Part shown: positions 14,709-22,679 of the stretch, piece by piece
Numbering within the stretch: the stretch's first letter is position 1
Layout: each line of letters opens with the position of its first letter
Assembly (NCBI GenBank): GCA_001704065.1
Contig: LHBX01000043.1
Location: 1 to 64,000, forward strand
DNA: 64,000 nt
Origin: Pelagibacteraceae bacterium GOM-A1
GTDB taxonomy: Bacteria > Pseudomonadota > Alphaproteobacteria > Pelagibacterales > Pelagibacteraceae
Reading direction: 5' to 3'
The notes under the pieces: model-generated
The model's database searches: none
What the model saw: only the letters and a program-made list of their open reading frames with translations
Told to the model about the DNA's origin: nothing
Translations under genes and position numbers: made by a program

Positions 14709-16502
14709 ATGACTAAATTTACAATTAACTCATTGTTATTAGAAAATTACAGAAGTTATGGAAAAGAAACCCAGATAAATTTTGGATCTCAAATTACTTT
14801 AATATTTGGCAAAGGCAGTGTTGGTAAAAGTACAATAATAGATGCTATTCAATCACTTCATATTGCCAATGAAAATGAGGTTGATTTGGTAGAAAAAACT
14901 TACAAATTACTAACTACAAAGAACTTTTCGAAAAAAAAACAAAAATCTTATGATTATTTTACATTAGGACTTTCCTGTAGAGAGGAACATTCTGATGATG
15001 ATATAAGTATTAAATCAATAAAAAAAGACTTTGCAACGGGTGATATACCTAAAATAGGATATACAGATTATCCTGCCAAAATTGCTCTATATTCTAACGA
15101 AGGATCAAATCTTGATACTAATCCTTTTGATGAAAAAAATAAATATATAAGCACACTAAATTTACCTTTAGTAACAAAAGAAGATAAAGATCTCAAAAAT
15201 TTTAGCTGCTCAACAATTGAAAGTTTTAGAAATGAAAATTCGTGGAAAAAACTGCATGAATTTACAAATAAAAAAAGCAAGGAATTATTAAAGTATTTTA
15301 AGAAAGTAGAAGATTTTGAAAAAAAATATGATGAGATTAACAAAAAGTTAAACGACGCTGAAAAACGAAAAAAAAGTAATGAAGCGAGTTTACTTCAAAA
15401 AGAATTAGATAAAGTATTTGATAAAGAATTTTCTGCTGAGGGATTTTCAGCAGTATGGTTTCCAATGGGTAGTCGAAGGGAAAAATATCAAAAATTTGTT
15501 GAAAAAGGGTCAAGTCTCAAAGAATTTATAAATTTTATTGAAGATGATATTAGACTTAATAAGGTATATTTATACAAAAGTAATCGACTTTACTCTAGAA
15601 GTAGTTATGAAAAAAATTTTTCTAGAAAAAGAGTAGATAAAATTTTATTAAAAAATAAAATAAAATTTCAGTCTCAACCATTTTATAATACAACAAGTTT
15701 AGCAGAATTTCTTTGCTATACTCTGACAGAGATAATTCATACCTCTTCAGGTCGTATGGATGAGCAGTTTTCTTTACCCATCATCCCGAGTAGAGATAAT
15801 TTTAGGTGGGGCAACAAAATCGGAGAGGAAATTATCCTTAGTCCAGATAAGATATTTGAGTTATGTGATAAATCATTCAAGCCACTTTTGGCTCAGATTA
15901 AAACAGTGCGTCATCAAGAAAATTTTAATAATTTGATTAAAAGCTTAAGTCAGTTTAGCGCAGCAAATCCATCTGCATCTGAATTTAACGACATAGTTGA
16001 TCAAAATTCAAAATCAATTAATAAATGGTTAAAAGAATTTGAATATGATTTTAAAATTACAGTTGATAAAATAGGATTAACTGGAGAAACTGAGATAAAT
16101 CACCAAAAAAACGGTTACAAAATACCATCTGACTTTGGTGGGTCTGGGGCACGTTACTTATTAACATATTTAACTGAACTTCTCGATTCCACTAATAAAA
16201 CTTTATTAATTGAAGAACCAGAGAAAGCACTTCACGCATCACTACAAATTAAATTAGCAAAACTTTTTACAGAGGTAAGTAAAAAGAACCAACTCATAAT
16301 TGAAACCCACAGTGAAAATTTACTATTAGGTATTCTTAAAGAAATTAGAGATAAGAACCTTAATCATAATAAAGTAAAAGTTCTCTACGTTTACATGGAA
16401 AATGGACAATCTAAGATTGATGAGGTTCAATTAAATGAAAAAGGTGGTTTTAGATCAAAATGGAGAGATGGTTTTTTTACGGAAAAATTAGATCTTTTAT
16501 AA
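14709..16502 (+). CDS. OLD/RecF-like AAA ATPase with DUF3696-type C-terminus
   Basis: 597 residues. N-terminal LLLENYRSYG leads into Walker A GKGSVGKST (34-42). A charged coiled-coil insertion lies at about 190-245. The second half of the nucleotide-binding domain has the signature-like DFGGSGARY (about 477), Walker B LLIEEPE (about 498) and H-loop ETHSENLLL (about 531). The tail, with a KIDEVQLNEKGG stretch and a final DGFFTEKLDLL, resembles DUF3696-type ATPases. There is no TOPRIM domain, so it is not a classical OLD nuclease. ATPases of this type often drive an effector encoded next door, and the gene ends exactly where the unknown 16503 gene begins. Divergent from rmuC. Confidence 0.75.
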   Translation: MTKFTINSLLLENYRSYGKETQINFGSQITLIFGKGSVGKSTIIDAIQSLHIANENEVDLVEKTYKLLTTKNFSKKKQKSYDYFTLGLSCREEHSDDDISIKSIKKDFATGDIPKIGYTDYPAKIALYSNEGSNLDTNPFDEKNKYISTLNLPLVTKEDKDLKNFSCSTIESFRNENSWKKLHEFTNKKSKELLKYFKKVEDFEKKYDEINKKLNDAEKRKKSNEASLLQKELDKVFDKEFSAEGFSAVWFPMGSRREKYQKFVEKGSSLKEFINFIEDDIRLNKVYLYKSNRLYSRSSYEKNFSRKRVDKILLKNKIKFQSQPFYNTTSLAEFLCYTLTEIIHTSSGRMDEQFSLPIIPSRDNFRWGNKIGEEIILSPDKIFELCDKSFKPLLAQIKTVRHQENFNNLIKSLSQFSAANPSASEFNDIVDQNSKSINKWLKEFEYDFKITVDKIGLTGETEINHQKNGYKIPSDFGGSGARYLLTYLTELLDSTNKTLLIEEPEKALHASLQIKLAKLFTEVSKKNQLIIETHSENLLLGILKEIRDKNLNHNKVKVLYVYMENGQSKIDEVQLNEKGGFRSKWRDGFFTEKLDLL

Positions 16503-17804
16503 ATGATATACCCCTTGTTTATAAGTCCAAAGTTTTTAATTGAGTTGAAAGATAACGAAAAACTTATGGATAAATTTTCAAATTTTGTAAATAGATTTAA
16601 GGAGTATTGGAATGATATATTTATACTGATTGATGATGAGGATAATAGCTTTACAAAAAAGTTTAAGGAAATAAAGCAAAATTTCGGCCACGAAAGTTAT
16701 GATTTTTTTATTATTTGCGATCTACTTATAAATTCAAGTAAAACCAAAACTATTAAACTCAACAAAAAATTTAAAGATGAAGATGAAATAATAAATTTTT
16801 TGAAAATAGAAAAAAAAATTAAAAATTTAGTTACTTTTCCAAAATATTTCGAAGAAGATAACATTACTTTAAAAAATACACTTCATAAAGTATTATTATC
16901 ATCATTGTCGGAAGAAGAGGCCTTACAAAGAATTATTTCTGTTACAAGATTTTCAAAAAAAATAGTTCTGATAGATCCAAATTTAGCAGATGCTTTAACT
17001 AATTTTAGTCATCAAAAATCTAGGGAGCATAAAAATGATTGTACGCAAATTAAAAGTAAGATAAATGACAAAAATAATGATTTAATTTTTTCTCTAAATA
17101 AAATTATTAAATCAATTTATGCATCAAACTTATTTCAAAAAGATATAAAAATTCAAATTAGGACAACTTTGAATCACAGTAAATTAAATCATTTTAAATT
17201 TGATATAATAGATAATTATAACAAATGGAAAATATTTGAAGATGCAAAGCAAAAAGGTTTTTCAAAATTTTTATGGCCAATTAAAAAGAAAAACACGAAT
17301 TTTCCAAAAAATTATGAAACTTTATATGATGGTAATAAATATTTTTCACTCATAAATAAAGATTTCGATGAGGACGAAGAAAGTTATAATATTAGATTAA
17401 AATCAAGTAGTATCTTGAATGTGGATAGTAAAATTAAACTAGACAAAAAAAAAGAAGCATTTAGTAAAATTGGTGAATTACTCAAATCTAATATGGAGAT
17501 TTGTACTACTAATATCTTAAAAGATTTAAAACCAGAAGTAATTATAAATGAACATTACAAAAATATAAAAAAAATTGATGAAGCAGAGCAAGATATTTAT
17601 TTTAGACATATTTTAGCAGTCGACCTAAGGTCAAGTATGGAATTAAGAAAAAGATTAGATATTTTTGACGCAAAAACAAAAAAATTAAAAAAAATTAACA
17701 GCTGGTATTTAAATTTAGAGGTAGGACCAGATGAAAAAAATTCAGCATTTAATATATTTAGTCATTCATTATACAAACCAGAGGAAATAAATTTCAATCG
17801 ATAG
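16503..17804 (+). CDS. Unknown protein paired with the AAA ATPase
   Basis: 433 residues, no family recognised. It is Lys/Asp/Asn-rich, with no signal peptide or membrane segment, so probably cytoplasmic. The start follows the ATPase stop with no gap, so the two should be made together. A hydrophobic strand followed by Asp (KKIVLIDPNLADAL, about 152-165) precedes a long helical region. Near the end, FRHILAVDL and then RKRLDIFD (about 367-390) faintly resemble the His-x-x-x / GRGLDIF pattern of phospholipase-D-like domains, but the catalytic HxK is not visible. It may be the effector or sensor of a two-gene system. Confidence 0.6.
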   Translation: MIYPLFISPKFLIELKDNEKLMDKFSNFVNRFKEYWNDIFILIDDEDNSFTKKFKEIKQNFGHESYDFFIICDLLINSSKTKTIKLNKKFKDEDEIINFLKIEKKIKNLVTFPKYFEEDNITLKNTLHKVLLSSLSEEEALQRIISVTRFSKKIVLIDPNLADALTNFSHQKSREHKNDCTQIKSKINDKNNDLIFSLNKIIKSIYASNLFQKDIKIQIRTTLNHSKLNHFKFDIIDNYNKWKIFEDAKQKGFSKFLWPIKKKNTNFPKNYETLYDGNKYFSLINKDFDEDEESYNIRLKSSSILNVDSKIKLDKKKEAFSKIGELLKSNMEICTTNILKDLKPEVIINEHYKNIKKIDEAEQDIYFRHILAVDLRSSMELRKRLDIFDAKTKKLKKINSWYLNLEVGPDEKNSAFNIFSHSLYKPEEINFNR

Positions 17805-17868
17805 TTGATTTTGACCAAAATCCCTTATTTTTACAGAAAAAAAATTAAATATATCTTTGTTGAAAATT

Positions 17869-17887
17869 AAAATTTAGCGGTTATATA
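17869..17887 (+). promoter_or_regulatory. Shared CGGTTAT element upstream of the sigma-factor gene (copy 3)
   Basis: The plus strand reads AAAATTTAGCGGTTATATA with the core at 17878-17884, 25 nt before the start at 17910. A TTGAAA at 17860-17865 and TATATA at 17882-17887 make a possible promoter pair with a 16-bp spacer, so the CGG sits just upstream of the -10. Confidence 0.6.
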
Positions 17888-17909
17888 AATTTTAAGCAGC
17901 AAGCCATAT

Positions 17910-18854
17910 ATGAATGAAAAAAAACGGCTTGCTTCAAATACAAAATTATTATCAGTATACAGCGTTACCAGTGCTGCAAAAAGTACTATAGATAATGAAC
18001 TAAACCTAATTCCAAAACATTGTAATAATATAGCAGAATTCTACTGTAAATTACCTTATGAATTTAAACAAAAATCGTTAATTTATAGGTCTATAAACTA
18101 TTATTTAAACTTAAATAATTTTTACCAGAACAAAGAAAATGTAGAGGACATTGTTAATGAGGCGATGTTTTTATTACATGAGGCATCATTTAAATATTTT
18201 GAAAAAATAAGAGATTATAATATTGAACAATTTGCAATAGTCCACATCAGAGAAAATATAAAAAGTTTTTTATCTAAATGTAATGGATTAAATAGTTCTG
18301 ATCAGAACGAATTGATTCACACAGCTATTAAAATAGTCAAAAAAAATAGTAAAAATTCATTCTTAACTTACGAAGAAGCAAAACACTTAGCTAATCATTT
18401 TAATTTATGCGATAAATTTGGATATAAGAAAATTTGGAAACTTGAAAGTCTCCATTTTGATAAAATACCACTTTGGAAAAAAAAAAAAGATAAAGATGGT
18501 TCTTTGGAAGAAATTTGTGTTGCAGATAAAAAAGAGATTGGTCTTTACGATAACTTTAATGAAAGTGAATATTATAACCCAGAATTTAAAATTGAAAAAA
18601 ATGATGAATTAAAAGATATAAATATTAAAAAAAATATTTTAAGGACCTTTGGGGAAGAAATAAGTAATCAAAAGGAAAAAGTAATTTTTAAACATAGAAT
18701 ATATAATGAAAATTTATCTTTTTTAAAACTTAGAGAAATTTCAAATTTACTTGGTATATCTATTCAAAGAATTAGCAAAATAGAAAAAAAATTAAAAGTC
18801 CAATTAAAAAAAATTTATGATATTGAAAAAAAAAAAACTGCGGACATAAGATAA
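17910..18854 (+). CDS. Divergent sigma-70 family factor (RpoH-like)
   Basis: 314 residues. A region-2-like segment (about 57-123) ends in FAIVHIRENIKSFL, which aligns with the YAIWWIRAAIQEYI helix of RpoH/RpoD region 2.4 but has lost its tryptophans. A region-4-like segment (about 243-302) includes LKLREISNLLGISIQRISKIE, a good match to the helix-turn-helix of region 4.2. The middle (about 180-240) is highly charged and is encoded over an A12 run at 18477-18488. It probably directs RNA polymerase to special promoters. Its own promoter carries the shared CGGTTAT element. First gene of the operon with nurA and herA. The family call is good; RpoH-like is an impression. Confidence 0.7.
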   Translation: MNEKKRLASNTKLLSVYSVTSAAKSTIDNELNLIPKHCNNIAEFYCKLPYEFKQKSLIYRSINYYLNLNNFYQNKENVEDIVNEAMFLLHEASFKYFEKIRDYNIEQFAIVHIRENIKSFLSKCNGLNSSDQNELIHTAIKIVKKNSKNSFLTYEEAKHLANHFNLCDKFGYKKIWKLESLHFDKIPLWKKKKDKDGSLEEICVADKKEIGLYDNFNESEYYNPEFKIEKNDELKDINIKKNILRTFGEEISNQKEKVIFKHRIYNENLSFLKLREISNLLGISIQRISKIEKKLKVQLKKIYDIEKKKTADIR

Positions 18855-18856
18855 AT

Positions 18857-19192
18857 ATGAACTTTAACTTTAACAAAACTAAACAAAGGAGGTTGTCTTC
18901 ACATAACTTTTCTAGCTTTGGTAAGAGTAGCTGTCGAGTAGCGGTAACGCCTCAATCACTTGGTTCTTCTTTTATTCCTTTCTTTAATTACCAAGTATCT
19001 GTATGCAGCAGCTCTTCCAAGGCCAGAAATAGTATAAAAATTCATTTTAGAAGTTTTTCTAGCAGAAAATCATGCTTCGTTTTCAAAAAAAAATTAAAAG
19101 AAAAGTTTTACAATTTCTCAAACAAAAAATTAAAAATTAGAACAAATGTTAGAGGAACTAAAATTCAATATTATTGTGGAGCAAATGCATGA
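18857..19192 (+). CDS. Hypothetical 111-residue basic Ser-rich ORF between sigma and nurA
   Basis: The frame is open for 111 codons, starts 2 nt after the sigma gene stop and ends with its TGA overlapping the nurA ATG as ATGA, which fits a translated, coupled gene. Against that, the product is an odd Ser/Arg/Lys/Phe-rich sequence with no recognisable family, the first half has about 41% G+C, and it uses codons that are rare around it (AGC, TGC, GCG, ACG). It contains a perfect AAAGGAGGT at 18885-18893 with no start codon placed to use it. It may be a real small protein or an RNA element that happens to be open in this frame. Confidence 0.4.
   Translation: MNFNFNKTKQRRLSSHNFSSFGKSSCRVAVTPQSLGSSFIPFFNYQVSVCSSSSKARNSIKIHFRSFSSRKSCFVFKKKLKEKFYNFSNKKLKIRTNVRGTKIQYYCGANA
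18885..19030. other. GC-richer segment with possible structured RNA
   Basis: About 41% G+C over 18881-19030 in surroundings near 25-30%. It begins with a 9-nt perfect Shine-Dalgarno sequence. It contains a repeated GAGTAGC (18926-18932 and 18936-18942) and an inverted repeat ACTTGGT / ACCAAGT (18958-18964 and 18990-18996) around a pyrimidine-rich loop. GC islands in AT-rich genomes often mark RNA genes. No known RNA family was recognised on either strand. Confidence 0.35.
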
Positions 19193-20496
19193 CTTTAAAA
19201 ATAGATATTAAAGACAAAATTAAACAAAACTCGTCAATGTTCGTTAACTTTATAAAAAACGCAATAACTGCATCTCCAAAAGTACAAAATAATTTCTTAG
19301 AAGTAACAACTAAAGTTGCTGAAACAGCTTTGAAAATTATTAAAGATGCCGACCTGATTGTTGATCTAAATTATAAAGGTAAAGAATTTTGGTCAATAAA
19401 TCGTTGCAAAACCTCATGTTTTATAGATGGAGGTGTTGATAGAACATCAATAATTAGCTCTGCCCCATTAAGCATAAGAGCTGGAAGCTATATAGTTAAA
19501 CCAGACGCAACCAGTAAAAGAGAATTTTTTGAAGAAAGCATGGTTTTCTTAGGTGACTTATATGATCCAAAAAATGAACTATATGATTTTGTTGACGATG
19601 ATTTTGAAGAAGATCAAATGCTCAATAAAAAGAAAGATGGTGCAAGAATTATATTTGAAGCTGCTACAATTGTTAAACACATCTTATTAAATAAAAAATT
19701 TGATTACTGTTTTCTCCATGGCCCACTAGAAGCAACTGTAATGCCATTTACAGTTGCGGGCTTTCCAACTTTTACTAAATTTGCAGTTGAAAATATGTTT
19801 CCATTTATAAACAAGAATTCAAACATAGAGTCTAGACATTTTATTAATGCTTATTTGGAAGCACTTAATTATATAAAGAAAAGTAAATTCCCAATATATG
19901 GTATTGTTGAGACATCTAATTCAGCACCATACATTAAAAATTTATTATTTAATTATAAAATCAAAGGAACAATTTCTGATAAAGATTATAATTCAGTAAT
20001 CAAAACGATTAAAAAATATAAAATTACTGACTCTCATATTCTTGAGATCATTTTATCAAGTGGCCAGGCCTTAAAGCCTCTTGAAGTAAAAAAACAGCTT
20101 GCAGGCTTTACAGTTACAAGTGGTTCAGCTTGGGAAGAAAAAATGGATAGCTTTCCTAAAGTATTTATTGGTTATATTAAAACATCAGACAATCAAGCAC
20201 CAGTAAGAATTGAATCTCTAAATTATCCAAAATATTTGATCAAAGATTATGAATATATTTTAGGAACTTCAAGGTTATTACCTAATTATGGATTTCCGGT
20301 TGGTTTAAATGTTGTCGATAAATTTGCAAAAATTCCAAACTGGATGAGTAAAACTTCTAGGAAATATTACGCAACCCATTTGTTAAGACAAGCTATAAAA
20401 AACAAAGACCAAAACACTGTTAGTCTTGCAGTAAAAATTTTATCAAAAAAATCAAGGTCTTGGAAAAATAGACCAATAGGAGGTATATCAAAATGA
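19189..20496 (+). CDS. nurA: NurA-like 5'-3' nuclease
   Basis: 435 residues from the ATG at 19189, chosen because it overlaps the upstream stop; a TTG at 19174 would add five residues. NurA-domain features are the first metal-binding motif CFIDGG (D80), a glutamate helix GARIIFEAATIVKHI (about 151-165), IYGIVETSNSAPYI in the position of the GIVK-S motif, and a late APVRIE segment. The second acidic motif, usually LDGPL or LDGSL, reads FLHGPL (176-181), replacing Asp by His. NurA resects DNA ends together with HerA, whose gene overlaps by 4 bp. The gene pair is decisive for the call. Confidence 0.75.
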   Translation: MTLKIDIKDKIKQNSSMFVNFIKNAITASPKVQNNFLEVTTKVAETALKIIKDADLIVDLNYKGKEFWSINRCKTSCFIDGGVDRTSIISSAPLSIRAGSYIVKPDATSKREFFEESMVFLGDLYDPKNELYDFVDDDFEEDQMLNKKKDGARIIFEAATIVKHILLNKKFDYCFLHGPLEATVMPFTVAGFPTFTKFAVENMFPFINKNSNIESRHFINAYLEALNYIKKSKFPIYGIVETSNSAPYIKNLLFNYKIKGTISDKDYNSVIKTIKKYKITDSHILEIILSSGQALKPLEVKKQLAGFTVTSGSAWEEKMDSFPKVFIGYIKTSDNQAPVRIESLNYPKYLIKDYEYILGTSRLLPNYGFPVGLNVVDKFAKIPNWMSKTSRKYYATHLLRQAIKNKDQNTVSLAVKILSKKSRSWKNRPIGGISK

Positions 20497-22187
20497 GTAA
20501 ATTTAATAATTGGAAAGCAATTGGAACTGTATTAGGCGAAACTGATATTAATGAGTATCACTTTAGTTTAAAAAATTATAAGGCCAAAAAAGGAGACATA
20601 GTGACTACAGCTTCAAGGCTTCCGTCTACAGATGGCACAGTGATACCTGTTACAGTTTGGGGAAAAATTTCAAGTATTGAAAGATTTAATGCATTCTTTC
20701 CTGCTGAGGCTGCTCAAGAACTGACAAACGAAGATATAGATATAAGAGACACTATACTTCCTACAACTAAAGATGAGTTAAGATGTAAAGTTATCATCCT
20801 AGGATACACAGAGGATGGGAAAGAAAAAATATCTAAACTTTTACCATTAAATTATCCAGTCATGCCTGCTGCAATAGTGAAATATCCCTCAAGTAAAGAC
20901 GTAGAGGAGCTATTTATCTCAGATTTAGACTCTTCTCATCCAATCTCAATTGGTAATTTGCTTGCTAGAAAAGACGTAGAAATCAAGATTGACGGGGATA
21001 ATTTAATATCTCGACATATCTCGGTTTGGGGAATGTCCGGATCTGGTAAGACTGTTTTTGTTAGAAGAATACTTACAGAATTATTAAATTTAAAATATCC
21101 AAGTTTTGTTTTAGATATACATGGAGATTATTTAGGGTTCGTCCAAAAACAAAAGAAATATTTTCCAGATAATAAAGTTAAATTATTTTACCCTAATTTA
21201 AGCGTTAGAGCTGAAGATAAAGAAATAGTTTATACTTTAATAGATAAACTAGGAAATACACTAACGGATCCACAAAAAGATTTCTTAAACTCACTATTAG
21301 AAAAAATTAAATACGAAGGTGGAAGTCTTCTTCAATATATTAAATTATTAAATTTAAAAGCAAGAGAGTTTGCATCATCAGGTTCTACTTCATTCAAAAA
21401 TGTTAAACCTGCTTCCATGTTTGTTGTGGCTAGAAGCTTAAGAATTGTATCTAAAAAACTTGAAAATATGGAACAAACAAATGCAAGGCACAGAAGAAAG
21501 ATGAGCCACCTTAAATTTGAAGAATTGCCAGACTCAGCTACTGAACCAGAAAAAATTATTTCTAAAGGCCAAATGAGTATATTATATTTAAGAGGTTATG
21601 AAAATTTACCAGCAAGTGCAATCGTTTCAATCGTATTAGAAAATCTATTCAGACACAGACAAGAGGCAAGCGAAGAAATTGCACCATTCTTTACTGTAAT
21701 TGAAGAAGCTCATAATTTCATCCCCTCAAGATCTGAAAATAAAGATGATATTCCATCCGTTGATACAATTAGAAAAGTAATCTCAGAGGGTAGAAAATTC
21801 GGAACTGGGGTTATGATTATCTCTCAAAGACCATCTAGAGTAGACGAAACAATTGCTTCACAATGTAATAGTCAGGTAGTATTTAGGATTGTCAATCAAA
21901 GAGACCAAAGAGCAACAACAAGAGACTCTGAAACATTAAGCAATGATGATGCAAAACAATTACCTAACTTGGCAAATGGTCAAGGTATAATCAGTGGGCA
22001 AATCGTAAATTATTCTTTACCTGTTCAAATAAAATTTGATGAAAAATTAATTAATGACGATATCGGAAATGAAAACTTCATTGATACTGTTGAAAATTGG
22101 GATGATAAAGAATCTGTAAAACTGAGAAAAAAGTTTGCAAAAGATTTTGCAGATATAAATGAAATAGATAGTAGGAGGGCAAATTGA
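20493..22187 (+). CDS. herA: HerA-family hexameric DNA translocase/ATPase
   Basis: 564 residues. An N-terminal beta-rich HAS-barrel-like region (about 1-130) precedes Walker A GMSGSGKT (180-187), then FVLDIHGDY, Walker B TVIEEAHNF (about 400) and the ISQRPSRVD segment that holds the sensor and arginine-finger region of HerA/FtsK ATPases. HerA rings pump DNA and stimulate NurA resection in archaea. In bacteria HerA is often found in anti-phage loci with a nuclease or SIR2-type partner. The start overlaps the nurA stop as ATGA, and a TTGA overlap couples it to the next gene. Confidence 0.88.
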   Translation: MSKFNNWKAIGTVLGETDINEYHFSLKNYKAKKGDIVTTASRLPSTDGTVIPVTVWGKISSIERFNAFFPAEAAQELTNEDIDIRDTILPTTKDELRCKVIILGYTEDGKEKISKLLPLNYPVMPAAIVKYPSSKDVEELFISDLDSSHPISIGNLLARKDVEIKIDGDNLISRHISVWGMSGSGKTVFVRRILTELLNLKYPSFVLDIHGDYLGFVQKQKKYFPDNKVKLFYPNLSVRAEDKEIVYTLIDKLGNTLTDPQKDFLNSLLEKIKYEGGSLLQYIKLLNLKAREFASSGSTSFKNVKPASMFVVARSLRIVSKKLENMEQTNARHRRKMSHLKFEELPDSATEPEKIISKGQMSILYLRGYENLPASAIVSIVLENLFRHRQEASEEIAPFFTVIEEAHNFIPSRSENKDDIPSVDTIRKVISEGRKFGTGVMIISQRPSRVDETIASQCNSQVVFRIVNQRDQRATTRDSETLSNDDAKQLPNLANGQGIISGQIVNYSLPVQIKFDEKLINDDIGNENFIDTVENWDDKESVKLRKKFAKDFADINEIDSRRAN

Positions 22188-22504
22188 TCGAAGTTTTAAA
22201 CTTAACTGAAATAATGGAATTAGCCCTTAAAATAACTTTGATTTTTTATGGTGTTTTTGTCTTTTACTTATTTGGAAAATTTGAAAAAATACCTTACTCA
22301 GCAAGACAGACTATATTTGTAATAGGAAATGGTGGTTGTTTATTTTTGGCTGGAGGCCTTATAACTAGCAATTTTTTTCTCATAAAAGGTGGAATTTTTA
22401 TATTGATAATTCACGCACTTATCGATGCTCATTATTTAATTTCAAGATACGAGATGTTTAAAGAATTAGAGAAAGAAGAGAAGAAAAGTAATGAAAAAAA
22501 ATAA
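22184..22504 (+). CDS. Small membrane protein in the herA operon
   Basis: 106 residues, family not recognised. The TTG start in a TTGA overlap with the herA stop is preceded by AGGAGGG at 22173-22179. It has three likely membrane segments (about 9-28, 41-60, 66-84) with short loops, and a charged C-terminal tail (EKEEKKSNEKK) predicted in the cytoplasm. No catalytic motif. Its place directly after herA suggests an accessory or membrane-linked role in the same module, which is inference. Confidence 0.6.
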   Translation: MIEVLNLTEIMELALKITLIFYGVFVFYLFGKFEKIPYSARQTIFVIGNGGCLFLAGGLITSNFFLIKGGIFILIIHALIDAHYLISRYEMFKELEKEEKKSNEKK

Positions 22505-22679
22505 AAATTATAATTGTCCAGCATGTAATGGGATTGGAGAAATAAAAGTAATTAAAAATATAGCTCAAATAGGACCATTTCATCTAGGAAAGGAAGTAAT
22601 GGAAAAATGTAATTTCTGCAAAACATACAAAAATGAAAAAAATTTATTTGATGAAGAATTTAGAGGAACTGTACACTAA
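22491..22679 (+). CDS. Small zinc-ribbon-like protein
   Basis: 62 residues. Two Cys pairs, CPACNGIG near the N-terminus and CNFCK (about 40-44), resemble the CxxCxGxG halves of DnaJ-type zinc fingers. It overlaps the preceding gene by 14 bp and the following one as TAATG. It probably binds one zinc ion. Partner unknown. Confidence 0.55.
   Translation: MKKNKNYNCPACNGIGEIKVIKNIAQIGPFHLGKEVMEKCNFCKTYKNEKNLFDEEFRGTVH

Follow-up and report, generated by a model that had tools for sequence, protein, structure and literature searches.

Comparative evidence for a structured RNA read in frame within a small gene next to nurA in a Pelagibacteraceae genome

We show by comparison with homologous loci that the segment at 18857-19192 of the window (the whole stretch of 64,000 nucleotides analysed here) is dual-coding, in that it encodes a novel small protein, ORF111, and a predicted conserved RNA that is also novel. 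The RNA matches no catalogued family and ORF111 was previously unnamed. A sequence-only reading of this DNA had proposed a small gene or a new RNA, and both proposals turned out to be true on the same nucleotides rather than being alternatives. It had suggested that relatives be compared for compensatory changes in the stems, as a test of RNA, and for synonymous bias in the 111-codon frame, as a test of protein; the relatives display both. Because the frame and the stems are conserved together in relatives, the segment is more than a product of chance. The source genome is Pelagibacter-type (1.33 Mb), and near-identical operons are present in Pelagibacteraceae single-cell genomes. The setting is one of the most abundant groups of ocean bacteria and a nuclease-ATPase operon resembling phage defence, and the segment offers a compact and testable example of protein and RNA selection on one sequence.

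The gene ORF111 and its protein

ORF111 is a real gene. Its frame of 111 codons runs from 18857 to 19192 on the forward strand, as had been read earlier, beginning with an ATG 2 nt past the stop of the upstream sigma-like gene and ending with a TGA that lies within the ATG of nurA (an ATGA overlap at 19189-19192). It is stop-free in all of about 26 Pelagibacteraceae homologues and is found in the same frame, again without stops, in two near relatives of 71 and 65% identity. The lengths of the homologues vary by multiples of whole codons, and the start is in all of them an in-frame ATG located 9-16 codons 5' of an Arg-Arg pair. Homologues occur in 11 of the 397 genomes of the order, including the sister genus, and also at the loci of 21 NurA relatives (partial only at L043). 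A weak match at L024 (G005) contained stops and lacked the RNA, and was rejected as chance.

AlphaFold2 predicted a folded bbabb domain at about residues 51-107 (coding region 19007-19189, forward strand), with pLDDT of 86-96 over approximately residues 51-110 and below 50 over residues 1-37; disorder was predicted for residues 1-47. The fold predicted for the sister-genus protein matches that of the window's protein. The domain is strongly basic, with 17 K+R versus 1 D+E. No known family in Pfam, NCBIfam, PHROGs, PADLOC or PDB matched ORF111, and a Foldseek search with the model returned nothing below E 0.03. The PDB matches were to designed proteins or chance only; PDB 9HNH, a candidate relative of the ORF111 profile, was rejected as a designed repeat protein in which weak repeats were summed. 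Neither ORF111 nor nurA had relatives in the viral and phage collections searched.

Architecture and conservation of the RNA

The RNA occupies codons 11-58 of ORF111 (about 18887-19025, forward strand) and is predicted to consist of AGGAGGT followed by a three-way junction of the helices P1, P2 and P3, which replaced a tRNA-like T-arm interpretation. In P1, the 5' strand (18913-18934) pairs with the 3' strand (19005-19025), and 8 of the 20 pairs underwent two-sided changes. P2 (18935-18954) is a hairpin of the form CGAG-UA-GCG-GUAA-CGC-CUCA, with a UA bulge, a GNRA tetraloop at 18944-18947 and two-sided changes in 5 of its 7 pairs. P3 (18957-18997) has a stem formed by 18957-18965 with 18989-18997, changed on both sides at 5 of 9 pairs, and a pyrimidine-rich loop of 23 nt that includes UUCCUUUC at 18975-18982. 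The junction strand J3/1 (18998-19004) is conserved and unpaired; it reads UCUGUAU here and UCUUUCU in the consensus. Landmarks pointed out earlier find their place in this fold. The inverted repeat ACTTGGT (18958-18964) and ACCAAGT (18990-18996) is helix P3, and of the two copies of GAGTAGC (18925-18931 and 18936-18942) the second is the source of part of P2, including the conserved UA bulge. The elevated G+C of about 41% over 150 nt was also reproduced (0.41 across 18884-19033), and in 150-nt steps the peak is 0.367 versus roughly 0.17-0.30 in the surroundings.

The stretch is unusually frozen in the codon alignment of the ORF111 homologues, and alignment folding over it gave a z of about -14 relative to column shuffles in the non-redundant set. 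Over 36 pairs in 22 sequences, 90.5% of the cells are paired, and in slid-partner controls the pairing falls to 29-44%. Two-sided compensatory change was found in 18 of the 36 pairs, compared to 7.6 +/- 1.6 in the shuffles (0 of 500 reached it). Because these shuffles ignore relatedness, we added redraws of synonymous codons that preserve the protein. The RNA part of 13 of 13 representatives folded better than all 60 redraws made for each (z -3.0 to -6.8), and with the same treatment the folding of the C-terminal part was ordinary. On a tree made without the RNA part, state changes recurred in several pairs, for instance seven times in the column pair 75-116 and five times in the column pair 37-138. 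On these comparative grounds, compensatory change beyond the shuffles and the slid controls identifies the element as a conserved structured RNA. It could be argued that ORF111 is a protein gene only, with a structure that is apparent from composition and codon bias, and the frame is conserved as this would require. However, such an explanation is almost certainly incorrect: it would need a wrong alignment, against which two independent members speak, and it is opposed by the synonymous shuffles, in which the protein is preserved but the fold is lost, by the compensatory changes and by the AGG codons described below.

A covariance model finds one copy of the RNA per genome, exactly in those 11 genomes that have the protein, and it matches two diverged sister-genus copies that were left out of model building (E about 1e-14). 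A sliding scan of the operon in unaligned windows (about 100) was less sharp, with a best z of -3.85 in ORF111 and values down to -3.25 in other genes. At the gathering score, Rfam 15 finds only tRNAs elsewhere in the window, and its permissive search over 18850-19200 gave a single chance lncRNA match (9.8 bits, E 8.2). No paper on the element was found in the literature searched, in which subscription journals were thinly covered.

In the alignment of 22 sequences (A6), the GNRA loop and the UA bulge of P2 are present in 22 of 22, and both are retained in L080 and L081. The pairs of the RNA contain 46 G-U cells versus 17 A-C cells. This excess, together with the constancy of the loop and the bulge, indicates an RNA of the sense strand. 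Alternatively, the active form of the structure might be folded single-stranded DNA, with a role, for example, in exchanging the alleles upstream of ORF111, and the exchange breakpoints do lie at, or just upstream of, the ORF111 start. Given the sense-strand signal, and that the sequence downstream is not exchanged at the fold, we consider this highly improbable. A diverged copy at L042 (5415-5570; 46.7 bits) retains P1 and has lost P2; ORF111 is 46% identical there.

The Shine-Dalgarno-like AGGAGGT (18887-18893, codons 11-13) lies 5' of the fold and is present in 22 of 22 sequences of A6; the longer AAAGGAGGT that had been noted is present at 18885-18893. In the main genus the Arg-Arg pair is coded by AGG AGG in 40 of 40 codons, versus AGG at 1 of 166 other Arg codons of the same genes, which implies selection on nucleotides and not on amino acids alone. 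The share of AGG among the Arg codons of other window genes is 10.5%. The residue whose codon gives the final T of the motif varies (L, S, F or Y). In predicted folds AGGAGGT is accessible in part, with a mean unpaired probability of 0.42, and its spacing to P1 is about 20 nt in one genus versus about 10 nt in the other. The earlier remark that no start codon stands behind it holds in this genus, which has no conserved start codon there, and fails in the sister genus, in which an out-of-frame ATGG follows the motif's position within a few bases at five of five loci (L056, L058, L039, L080 and L081). This ATGG opens short ORFs of varying length (MARVRAGLEYR, then a stop, and similar). We rejected a short +1-frame leader peptide, because it would be confined to the sister genus and variable in length, and this genus has no conserved start codon for it. 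Pairing of AGGAGG with UUCCUUUC of the P3 loop as a pseudoknot was not established: although 90% of the cells pair, the motif does not vary and the loop is rich in pyrimidines. The distant relative L081 has lost AGGAGG and kept the loop.

In the RNA region of 24 distinct homologues, the ORF111 frame has no stops, versus 50 and 113 in the two other forward frames, and the plausible short peptides that had been seen in several frames of both strands were not borne out by this count. Indels in the region are multiples of three. Because the frame is open across the whole RNA, the mRNA would be translated through it. Synonymous divergence (pS) is lower than in the C-terminal half (0.29 versus 0.48) and pN/pS is higher (0.61 versus 0.32), as expected if selection acts on RNA structure rather than on a disordered peptide. 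Judged from these substitution patterns, the C-terminal half is under protein-type evolution and codons 11-58, approximately, are under evolution of the structured-RNA type while being read in frame. Recoding signals classically consist of an internal Shine-Dalgarno motif with a structure behind it, and here both are present together with rare AGG AGG codons. Nevertheless, programmed frameshifting or bypass is very unlikely, because the other frames are closed, a conserved slippery heptamer is absent from the codon alignment, the spacing is not conserved and the continuous frame already codes for the whole protein.

Operon setting and possible function

The nurA-like gene (19189-20496, forward strand) lies directly 3' of ORF111 and adjoins it in nearly all homologues; its match to Pfam NurA is just below the 21-bit cut-off (18.3 bits, E 0.0018). 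A class-wide search for the window's NurA found its own genome only. The herA-like ATPase gene (20493-22187, forward strand) matches Pfam DUF87 HerA at 1.6e-25. The gene 5' of ORF111 is sigma-70-like (17910-18854, forward strand; TIGR02937 above cut-off) and is one of several exchanged alleles. At all loci that are long enough, the order is AAA ATPase, variable partner, variable sigma-like gene, ORF111, nurA, herA and small genes; most of these loci are flanked by rmuC on the upstream side and by hisG on the downstream side. The ATPase of the operon is similar to the AAA_15/OLD-type proteins found in several defence systems, and the sigma-like gene matches MzaA in one allele (4.9e-8); these similarities make a defence role of the operon plausible.

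Across L040-L060, the partner and sigma-like genes (14709-18854 in the window) occupy a fixed chromosomal site in the form of several alleles that are unrelated to one another, and ORF111, nurA and herA are constant. The two variable genes are possibly an exchangeable specificity module. At L036 and L037, identity to the window's genes is only about 50% for nurA and about 61-62% for ORF111, and it seems from these loci that ORF111 with its RNA has moved partly independently of nurA. At L028 (11886-12548), and also at L042, L059 and L060, nurA and herA are separated by a gene of 220 aa with an apparent GIY-YIG-like motif. In L029 (5517-7200) and L051 (7314-8997), herA is in two open frames, by frameshift or assembly error. 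Two small proteins are encoded 3' of herA and conserved with it, namely a 62-aa CxxC protein with a weak match to a DnaJ zinc domain (22491-22679) and an apparently membrane protein of 106 aa.

We suggest, with about even confidence, that the RNA controls the translation of ORF111 and the coupled nurA, acting in cis on the sense mRNA. The fold, the Shine-Dalgarno-like motif and the tandem rare AGG codons would slow or gate ribosomes early in ORF111. Such gating would determine how much ORF111 is made and, via the ATGA overlap, how strongly nurA and perhaps also herA are translated. The small basic C-terminal domain, as predicted, may be a ligand of its own mRNA and thus allow autoregulation. 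We favour the cis reading because the RNA is read in frame, a terminator is lacking, the upstream sequence is exchanged and the genes overlap by ATGA. Between 18500 and 19400 there are no terminator-like sites, and the seven promoter-like sites are not beyond chance (4.6 +/- 2.2 expected); since the RNA is also constant across differing upstream alleles, it is probably transcribed with the operon. On the other side, the motif has no conserved start codon behind it in this genus, L081 is without AGGAGGT, L042 is without P2 and the motif is only partly accessible. The difference in AGGAGGT-P1 spacing between the genera weakens a precise geometry of ribosome pausing.

The main rival is a separate non-coding RNA, cut from or made from the region and serving the ORF111/NurA/HerA machinery, for example, as its RNA cofactor or as a sensor. 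The GNRA loop, the UA bulge and the conserved junction strand exceed the needs of a simple attenuator, the RNA has a single copy per genome in constant protein company, and the very basic domain of ORF111 also speaks for it. However, the frame is open through the whole RNA, which is hence translated, a terminator-like site is lacking and no conserved upstream sequence is fit to be a promoter of its own, so that we regard this rival as fairly unlikely. A bolder reading, which we estimate to be unlikely, is that ORF111 encodes a small basic protein together with its RNA partner: the in-gene RNA, released or bound, would be the RNA component of a new kind of NurA-HerA defence machine. If this were true, one short stretch would encode both halves of a ribonucleoprotein. 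It is also conceivable, if quite unlikely, that the long P1 duplex serves for processing of the RNase III type, which would split the operon mRNA into upstream and downstream parts and so tune ORF111 against nurA-herA. About 20 pairs would suffice for a duplex nuclease, and the element lies between exchanged upstream and constant downstream genes, but conservation of the GNRA loop, the UA bulge, AGGAGGT and the junction strand would be left unexplained.

Relation to known systems

For the cis-acting control element that we favour, there are parallels in ribosomal protein leaders such as that of S15 (PMC4137082), in which the mRNA likewise carries a conserved structured RNA that controls its own operon, as it would here, and a small basic protein is encoded in cis. 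Leaders of the S15 type are located in or beside the 5' UTR, whereas the fold of ORF111 is entirely inside the coding frame; moreover, ORF111 does not belong to the known ribosomal proteins, and its binding to its own mRNA is only a candidate interaction. A riboswitch would be expected in a 5' untranslated leader, and the fold lies wholly within ORF111 codons, without a terminator-like site.

In a survey of Pelagibacter RNAs, which included the rpsL motif and others, intergenic regions were searched and conserved coding regions were removed (PMC2704228). The motifs came from the same organisms and were likewise flagged by high G+C in an AT-rich genome, but an RNA inside a gene was outside the scope of that survey because of its intergenic design. 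Bacterial structured-RNA searches usually drop coding regions, so that such RNAs can be missed by design. In E. coli arfA, a hairpin inside the coding sequence is cut by RNase III. Structure within a small ORF thus controls expression there, as we propose for ORF111; compared by description, ORF111 differs in having a three-way junction in its first half and in that no nonstop product is expected. The recoding signals of dnaX and prfB type share an internal Shine-Dalgarno-like motif 5' of a structure, but unlike them ORF111 is without a slippery site and a conserved second frame. We know of no in-gene RNA in NurA-HerA or MZA systems. The operon shares its nurA-herA pair with the NurA-HerA nuclease-ATPase (PMC12977600) and its sigma-like neighbour, with the MzaA match of one allele, with the sigma-containing MZA defence operons, and it differs from both systems in content.
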